Of a stretch of DNA of 64,000 nucleotides, positions 49,423-51,130 are shown in pieces. Source of the stretch: Gemmatimonadaceae bacterium (GTDB lineage: Bacteria > Gemmatimonadota > Gemmatimonadetes > Gemmatimonadales > Gemmatimonadaceae); NCBI GenBank assembly GCA_025358925.1, contig JANYHT010000016.1:1-64000 (forward strand). The letters are read 5' to 3'. Made by a program: the position numbers and the translations under genes. The notes beneath the pieces were generated by a model, which did no database searches, was not told the origin of the DNA, and was given only the letters and a program-made list of their open reading frames with translations. Numbering within the stretch: position 1 is the stretch's first letter; every line of letters starts with the position of its first letter.

Positions 49423-50853
49423 TCATACGCGTCGCGTGCGCCAACGTCCGCGCTTGAACATGGTGGCGCTGACTACAGCCAACAGTGAGTAGGCAGCGAG
49501 CACGGAAACAAACACGGCGCGCGATCCGAGGCTCGTACGATCCGCTAGCAGCCACGCGAGGGGGATCTCAAAAATCCAGAATACCGCAATGTTGATGCGC
49601 GTCGGGGTTGCCGTGTCGCCCGCACCGTTGAACGATTGCGTTAATGTCATGCCGAACGCGAATAATGGAAATCCCGCCGCCATAATGCGCAGGCCAAACA
49701 CCGCCACGTTGCCGACGGCGCTATCCGTTGTGAACGCGTGCACGATGTGCGGCGCGCACACAAAGAAGAACACTCCCATCAACCCGAGAAAGGCCACGTT
49801 GTATCGCGCGGCTGTCCACACGGCGGATTCTGCACGCGCTGGATTTGAGGCACCCAGCGCTTGTCCAACCATGGTAGCAGCTGCGTTGCCCAAGCCCCAT
49901 GCGGGAAGCAAGGCAAACATCACCATGCGCACGGCGATTGTGTAGCCGGCCATGGCGGCGCTCCCAAAGGTTGCCATGAGTCGGACCAGTGCAATCCAAC
50001 TGAGGCTACCAACAAGTACCTGAAACGTGCCGTTGAGCGAAAGTCGCAGAATACGCGTGATGGTTTCCCATTCGAGGACGATATGTCGACGCGCGACCCG
50101 TAAATGACCGCTACCGCGCGCAAGAAAGTACAGCGCAACGAGGACGCCGACCCCGCGACCAATCGTCGTCGCGACCGCCGCTCCCGTTACACCAAGCTGC
50201 GGCAGTGGACCGACGCCAAAAATGAGTAACGGCCCGAGCACAATGTTGATGGCGTTGGAGACCCAGAGCACACGCATTGATACGGCGGCGTCGCCCGCGC
50301 CGCGAAACGACGAGTTGATGACGAACAGCATAAAGGCGGTCACACTTCCGCCAAGCATGACGCGTGTGAACGTTGTTCCGCTACGGATGACATCGGATGA
50401 TGCACCCATGAGCGCCAACAGTTGTGGCGCAAAGGCCGCGCCGCTTGCCGCGATGATTGTAGACACGACGGCACCAATGATGATGGCTTGTACGGCAGCG
50501 CGCGCTGCCGCATCGGTATCCTTCTCGCCGACACGACGTGCGACAATAGCGGCAGCGGAAATCGCGAGACCCATGGCAAGTGTGTAGACCACAATCATCA
50601 TGGACTCGGTCAGCCCTACCGTCGCGATGGCGGACGCACCAAGCCGCGCGACGAAGAACACGTCCGTTACGGCGAACAAACTTTCCATCACCATTTCCAA
50701 CACCATCGGTACTGCGAGCAGAAAAATCGCTCGCCCGATTGAACCAGTGGTGTAATCATGGCGAGAGCCATTCAGCGCATCGCGCAAATCGCGACGCACG
50801 CTGGCCATGCCTATTGTGTGCGGGGCGCTTTCAGTTGCACTCGTTCGCTGCAC
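49423..50853 (-). CDS. MATE family multidrug/cation efflux transporter
   Basis: A 476-residue inner-membrane exporter of the MATE (NorM/DinF-like) family that uses H+ or Na+ to expel cationic drugs or metabolites. Twelve hydrophobic segments are visible in two bundles. GSIGRAIFLLAVPMVLEMVME and RLGASAIATVG are typical of bundle 1; LSLNGTFQVLVGSLSWIALVR and GAGDTATPTR of bundle 2. The GTG start at 50853 is preceded by GAGG with a 5-nt spacer. Only 25 nt upstream of the GTG lies a strong terminator-like hairpin, so its expression probably depends on read-through. Confidence 0.93.
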   Translation of the reverse strand: MQRTSATESAPHTIGMASVRRDLRDALNGSRHDYTTGSIGRAIFLLAVPMVLEMVMESLFAVTDVFFVARLGASAIATVGLTESMMIVVYTLAMGLAISAAAIVARRVGEKDTDAAARAAVQAIIIGAVVSTIIAASGAAFAPQLLALMGASSDVIRSGTTFTRVMLGGSVTAFMLFVINSSFRGAGDAAVSMRVLWVSNAINIVLGPLLIFGVGPLPQLGVTGAAVATTIGRGVGVLVALYFLARGSGHLRVARRHIVLEWETITRILRLSLNGTFQVLVGSLSWIALVRLMATFGSAAMAGYTIAVRMVMFALLPAWGLGNAAATMVGQALGASNPARAESAVWTAARYNVAFLGLMGVFFFVCAPHIVHAFTTDSAVGNVAVFGLRIMAAGFPLFAFGMTLTQSFNGAGDTATPTRINIAVFWIFEIPLAWLLADRTSLGSRAVFVSVLAAYSLLAVVSATMFKRGRWRTRRV

Positions 50854-50878
50854 GTAAACCTCGATTGGTTCGATAGAA

Positions 50879-50913
50879 ACGCCCCTCCTGCGAGACCAAA
50901 GCAGGAGGGGCGT
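50879..50913 (-). terminator. Terminator hairpin in the leader of the MATE gene
   Basis: A perfect 13-bp stem (ACGCCCCTCCTGC, minus-strand 50913-50901, with its complement at 50891-50879) and a 9-nt loop, followed on the minus strand by TTTCTATCG. It is placed 25 nt before the MATE start codon, directly upstream of its ribosome site. Confidence 0.78.
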
Positions 50914-51030
50914 GAATCGGCGAGGAGCGGCGAAAAGTCGCTGCTGCTACTCCCGTTGCCCTGCTTTGACGTGCACATGCGTCGCTACTGCAACCGTCAC
51001 GGCAGTGCAGGAGCCCCGGCTGACCGGGGC
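50879..51030 (-). promoter_or_regulatory. Candidate structured attenuator leader of the MATE gene
   Basis: The minus-strand RNA here can form several hairpins: GCCCCGG/CCGGGGC (51030-51013, loop 4), CTGCA/TGCAG (51010-50988) and the terminator at 50913-50879. The 9-mer CAAAGCAGG at 50968-50960 is perfectly complementary to CCTGCTTTG at 50905-50897, which is the last 5 nt of the terminator 5' arm plus 4 nt of its loop; G-U pairs can extend it to 12 pairs. The two structures are mutually exclusive, the hallmark of a terminator/antiterminator switch. No known riboswitch or T-box consensus was recognised. There is no room for a promoter between the terminator and the start codon. Confidence 0.42.
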
Positions 51031-51130
51031 GGAGCGAGCGATAGTGGCACGAAAGCGGGGAATCATCGGGCACCAAAGTGGAAGTAGCTAGATCGAGAAA
51101 TGTAACGCGGGATTGTTCATGACGCGCAAA

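Follow-up and report, generated by a model that had tools for sequence, protein, structure and literature searches.

A Predicted Leader-Peptide Transcription Attenuator in Front of a MATE Exporter Gene of Gemmatimonadaceae

Introduction

What is an intrinsic terminator doing directly in front of a MATE exporter gene, and what might let transcription pass it? This question is raised by a stretch of 64,000 nucleotides (the window) from a soil-type Gemmatimonadaceae bacterium, in which the exporter gene lies on the minus strand at positions 49423-50853, begins with GTG, and is identified by Pfam MatE (4e-52) and NCBIfam matE (1.5e-76). The original prediction proposed a terminator/antiterminator switch at this place, possibly a ligand-binding riboswitch. 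We found strong support for the switch, the 9-nt pairing on which it turns being conserved and covarying in relatives, which are themselves Gemmatimonadaceae. A different kind of sensor is suggested, however: the exporter is predicted, with a probability of roughly 0.8 judged from sequence comparison and folding, to be controlled by ribosome-mediated transcription attenuation.

Terminator and Complementary Segment

The minus strand carries a hairpin of 13 perfect base pairs with a 9-nt loop at 50913-50879 (5' arm ACGCCCCTCCTGC, 50913-50901; loop TTTGGTCTC, 50900-50892; 3' arm GCAGGAGGGGCGT, 50891-50879). Together with a short U-rich tail it makes up an intrinsic terminator (50872-50913), the stem of which is kept and covaries in relatives, and 25 nt separate the end of the hairpin from the GTG at 50853. 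The hairpin region folds more stably than shuffled sequences (z -3.1). The U tract (TTTCTAT) is weak and short, which we counted against an attenuator.

Upstream lies CAAAGCAGG (50968-50960), all 9 nt of which form Watson-Crick pairs with CCTGCTTTG (50905-50897), the end of the 5' arm plus four loop bases. With G-U pairs, the match grows to 12 pairs between GTCAAAGCAGGG (50970-50959), hereafter segment 2, the 5' strand of the antiterminator, and TCCTGCTTTGGT (50906-50895), hereafter segment 3, its 3' strand, which overlaps the 5' arm and loop of the terminator. When the terminator was compared with the preceding 110 nt, an equally good match was obtained in less than 1% of dinucleotide shuffles (p 0.007). 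The coordinates of the hairpin and its complementary segment were thus confirmed as originally described.

Leader Open Reading Frame

An unannotated open reading frame (ORF) of 39 codons, MIPRFRATIARSAPVSRGSCTAVTVAVATHVHVKAGQRE, occupies 51066-50947 on the minus strand, with an ATG at 51066 and a TAG stop at 50949-50947, and closes just before a hairpin at 50945-50926 that was found by folding and covaries in relatives (helix 2). Segment 2 lies within this frame, near its end, and corresponds to the codons V-K-A-G. Orthologous MATE genes in relatives are preceded by an ORF of the same layout. A Shine-Dalgarno-like GGTG stands at 51074-51071, and of 26 leaders, 14 carry the start context GGTGC N2-4 RTG. 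When GGTGC plus RTG was searched in all frames, each of the 14 occurrences shared the frame of the stop codon, their distance from it taking eight different values between 39 and 117 nt. Leader length varies from 13 to 43 codons across relatives, yet frame, start context and stop are retained; in a pair of sister species (L056/L058), the TAG stop is replaced by TGA and the ORF is still closed. A 5' region that is an ORF of variable length with frame, start and stop kept points to a translating ribosome as the sensor.

Inside the leader ORF, a strong hairpin spans 51051-50971 (-37 kcal/mol) and includes GCCCCGG/CCGGGGC at 51030-51013; the two further upstream hairpins noted originally do exist, this one being an example, but they lie inside the ORF that had been missed. 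In the lowest-energy fold of the window leader, segment 1, CCCCGCTTT (51060-51052, codons 3-5), pairs with AAAGCAGGG in segment 2 apart from a single C-A mismatch. For the stretch that begins at codon 3 and runs into segment 2, the folding z-score was -3.0 in the window leader and averaged -2.8 over 20 leaders, and the RNA of leaders of at least 26 codons folds into a strong hairpin (mean z -2.8).

These observations bear on the idea of a metabolite riboswitch of an undescribed class, in which a ligand would stabilize one fold and control the terminator without translation. Alternative folds do precede an exporter gene, and the unconserved leader peptide would suit such a mechanism. The scan against Rfam 15 gave nothing at or above the gathering score, so that no family, riboswitch and T-box included, matches the element, as the original prediction had said of known classes. 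Its ligand-binding proposal fared less well: the alignments show no conserved aptamer-like domain, and the 5' part ranges widely in length yet keeps an open frame with a start context and a stop. We therefore consider a riboswitch improbable.

Leader Peptide Sequence

No conservation of the leader peptide was detected, and no sign of purifying selection on it was seen in three close leader pairs, in which pN of the leader equalled or exceeded pS (on small counts per pair); in the MATE genes of the same pairs, pN was 0.01-0.07 and pS 0.21-0.48. A frame that is kept while its peptide is free to change argues against a specific arrest peptide and for the sensing of ribosome progress.

The same data weigh on an attenuator of the trp type, in which lack of one amino acid would stall the leader ribosome. 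The segment layout resembles that of the trp leader, and the leader peptides often contain Arg and Val. However, the 26 peptides share no run of a particular codon and, in the stalling region, no conserved residue; the peptide is evolving unconstrained, and the controlled gene encodes an exporter rather than a biosynthetic enzyme. The Arg and Val content would be expected anyway from GC-rich hairpin DNA. Sensing of a single amino acid is accordingly an unlikely account of this leader.

A drug-specific arrest peptide of the erm/mef type, with a defined motif stalling a macrolide-bound ribosome, can be weighed on the same peptides. R/K-x-R/K is found in 12 of the 26, with 19 motifs against 9.5 in shuffles (p 0.002, in leaders that are interrelated and whose GC-rich hairpins encode Arg), and mef(E)L is such a leader ahead of an exporter (PMC4335068). 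This excess, though confounded, hints at macrolide-like stalling. On the other side, 14 of the 26 leaders are without the motif and no purifying selection is seen in the peptide sequence, and a dedicated arrest peptide is very improbable.

Distribution among Relatives

Congeneric species have the same leader layout ahead of their orthologous MATE gene, and the element is also present in the GenBank record of Gemmatimonadaceae GEM1. Five leaders of the genus were used to build a covariance model, with which 179 family genomes were searched. This model returned 21 strong matches (E 1.6e-16 to 4.3e-4) in five genera, five of them the sequences from which the model was built, and all lay directly before the orthologous MATE gene. 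The layout was intact in 20 of the 21. A second model, run over 395 genomes of the phylum, gave further matches, again before MATE in the same family. Weak matches from the two models, R1 and R2 (L059-L061, L095, L096), lay within coding regions and were rejected as noise. In the window's own genome, a search for a second copy of the element found none. When 84,980 species genomes were scanned with a pattern, 11 matches emerged, seven of them in Gemmatimonadota records; the four in other phyla were attributed to chance, being inside genes or without a leader and T-run.

Orthologs of the MATE gene were present in 90 of the 179 family genomes. Reading the upstream regions of 48 further orthologs revealed additional, diverged leaders, and by a count made partly by eye, at least 37 of the 90 have a leader ORF, a terminator and complementarity. 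More than half of the family's orthologs are without a recognized leader, which was counted against the attenuator, and in several genomes where MATE stands directly behind another gene no leader was seen. Also counted against it was the closest relative (L003/L051, G018:C401; MATE 92% identical), the one strong match with a decayed copy, in which the antiterminator pairing is lost. That genome is without the gene for the DUF7790 protein and the first part of the leader, a mismatch disturbs the terminator stem, and the MATE frame is broken, giving two separate matches and containing one stop, so that the switch seems to be in decay in this relative.

Several other arrangements came to light in the course of the search. 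In L116, L117, L119, L123, L136, L137, L142 and L144 (genera g3, g23 and g28), the same MATE gene follows a different strong terminator, GGGCGGCRCCG...CGGTGCCGCCC, sometimes with a short ORF. Antiterminator pairing was sought in the g28/g3/g23/g33 terminator group and none was significant (Fisher p 0.73); the terminators before MATE in g3, g23 and g28 are perhaps another type of attenuator. Two look-alikes, in which GGYGCAGG pairs with CCTGCGCC ahead of a terminator (L090, G031:C75:3027-3162; L093, G095:C63:1404-1542), precede TROVE/Ro60-type genes instead of MATE and match nothing in Rfam; these are possibly Y-RNA-like genes. In a class-level relative (L088, G231:C348:415-542), a GCGCAGG...CCTGCGC element and a terminator stand before a gene for a small protein.

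Covariation of the Alternative Pairings

In a MAFFT alignment of 20 leaders, pairing was kept at 98.3% over the 9 core pairs of the antiterminator, three of which show double-sided changes; the hairpin that follows the leader stop covaried as well. Four of five covariation measures exceeded all 500 shuffles; the fifth, the number of pair types, did not. Shifting the two strands against each other lowered pairing to 34-51%. The loop base adjoining the helix pairs with its leader base in 17 of 20 sequences, against 9.7 with swapped partners (0 of 5000 swaps, a test that does not fully correct for the relatedness of the leaders). This base is not part of the terminator stem, so that its covariation is not accounted for by selection on the terminator alone. 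Covariation backs both of the mutually exclusive structures, the antiterminator and the terminator.

The sister species L056/L058 differ one pair further out, A-U standing against C-G; in genus g2, GCGCAGAC:GTCTGCGC alternates with GCGCAGGC:GCCTGCGC; and in the diverged leaders of g27, complementarity is kept with other sequences, AGCACGGGAA:TTCCCGTGCT. For the diverged set as a whole, complementarity reached a Fisher p of 1e-4, which is supportive only, because the set was picked with the layout already known and consists of related leaders; in some of these, the best match differed from the expected one. The pairing of early codons with segment 2 is absent from several leaders and not significant in the window alone, and over 25 leaders none of 5000 swaps, again incompletely corrected for relatedness, reached the observed mean energy. 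Pairing of the Shine-Dalgarno and start region with segment 2 was considered as well and was unsupported overall (swap p 0.45).

A promoter appears to accompany the element. The motif TTGNNN-N17-TANNNT stands before most leaders, ending 30-61 nt ahead of the start, with a summed score of 263 compared with 193 +/- 4.8 in shuffles. A good match is lacking at L047, and the window's own copy is less clear: the candidate is TTGCGC-N18-TTACAT (51129-51100), chosen by its position and its resemblance to the motif before related leaders, and TTGATA-N18-AACAAT (51141-51112) is an alternative. The conserved, covarying 9-nt pairing and this dedicated promoter-like motif indicate that the hairpin is more than a terminator closing the upstream operon. 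That it is a mere 3' terminator of the same-strand DUF7790 protein gene (52443-51163), which ends 250 nt upstream, with the pairing due to chance, is highly improbable, as the pairing covaries, the promoter-like motif lies between that gene and the leader, and upstream genes differ among relatives while the element stays with MATE.

Ribosome Position and Proposed Mechanism

In nearly all leaders, segment 2 begins 15-24 nt before the stop (34-35 nt in the exception, L085/L086), so that a ribosome standing on the leader stop would be expected to cover this 5' strand of the antiterminator. When the ribosome footprint was masked in a folding model and the probability of the antiterminator was read out, the mean was 0.04 for a ribosome at the stop and 0.75 for stalling at codon 5, which allowed the antiterminator in most leaders; with no ribosome, the probability ranged from 0 to 1 depending on the leader. 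Two results were counted against the attenuator. In the full leader of the window, the equilibrium fold gave little antiterminator in any ribosome state, because a competing fold is favored by about 3 kcal/mol (when isolated, the element forms the antiterminator), and in L086 the antiterminator was retained even with a ribosome at the stop.

Sequence comparison shows that a leader ORF, alternative pairings and a terminator are present and that they are linked to this MATE family. From these, a mechanism may be proposed. Transcription would begin just upstream, and the short leader ORF would be translated behind the polymerase. A ribosome reaching the stop codon would cover segment 2, leaving segment 3 to form the terminator, and transcription would end before the exporter gene. 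Were the ribosome stalled early in the leader, segment 2 would pair with segment 3, the antiterminator would block the terminator, and the exporter would be transcribed. In many leaders, segment 2 can also be taken up by pairing with early codons, so that termination may occur on a transcript that is not translated, in the manner of the trp leader. The direction of control, from normal translation to termination and from early stalling to read-through, is what we infer from this arrangement, and the natural signal would be a slowing of translation by compounds that target the ribosome and may be removed by the exporter. The exporter would probably be switched on by ribosome-targeting drugs. 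There is about an even chance that the element is a family-wide sensor of translation stress in Gemmatimonadaceae, for which ribosome progress matters and peptide sequence does not, with ribosome-targeting natural products of the habitat as inducers and perhaps as substrates of the exporter.

On this prediction, Gemmatimonadota contain a MATE exporter controlled through a leader peptide. The switch offers a direct route to the inducers, and hence the candidate substrates, of the pump, and its many copies with swapped sequences and preserved pairing are a good natural set for studying attenuator evolution.

Comparison with Known Systems

By its anatomy, the element is a leader-peptide transcription attenuator, a known kind of regulator. 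In the literature searched, of which coverage was partial, we found no report of a MATE gene under such attenuation, and a search for Gemmatimonas together with leader peptides gave nothing related. With trp-type leaders such as E. coli trpL it shares the alternative segments 1:2, 2:3 and 3:4 and a ribosome at the leader stop that covers segment 2; it differs in having no regulatory codon run, in controlling an exporter, and in showing the 1:2 pairing in part of the leaders only. The mef(E)/mel leader of Streptococcus pneumoniae likewise attenuates a drug exporter by a leader peptide and an intrinsic terminator, but its stall signal is a short conserved peptide, MTASMRLR (PMC4335068), whereas the peptide here is unconserved. 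In the E. coli topAI-yjhQ transcript, an upstream ORF is described as sensing several classes of ribosome-targeting antibiotics and as controlling a toxin-antitoxin system (PMC12121999), unlike the MATE exporter here.

The regulatory logic proposed here has been demonstrated for bmrB-bmrCD of Bacillus subtilis, where transcription of a multidrug exporter is controlled by a leader ORF that is translated, together with a terminator and an antiterminator, and where the 50S-targeting antibiotics lincomycin, erythromycin and chloramphenicol induce expression in a manner that requires translation of the leader (PMC4191407). In that system, the leader ORF has 53 codons and contains the terminator, and an ABC pair serves as exporter (PMC4191407); here the terminator follows the stop codon, the leader has 13-43 codons, the exporter is of the MATE family, and the host belongs to another phylum. 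The simplest reading is that read-through at this locus would depend on ribosome stalling, as in the model published for bmrB-bmrCD (PMC4191407).
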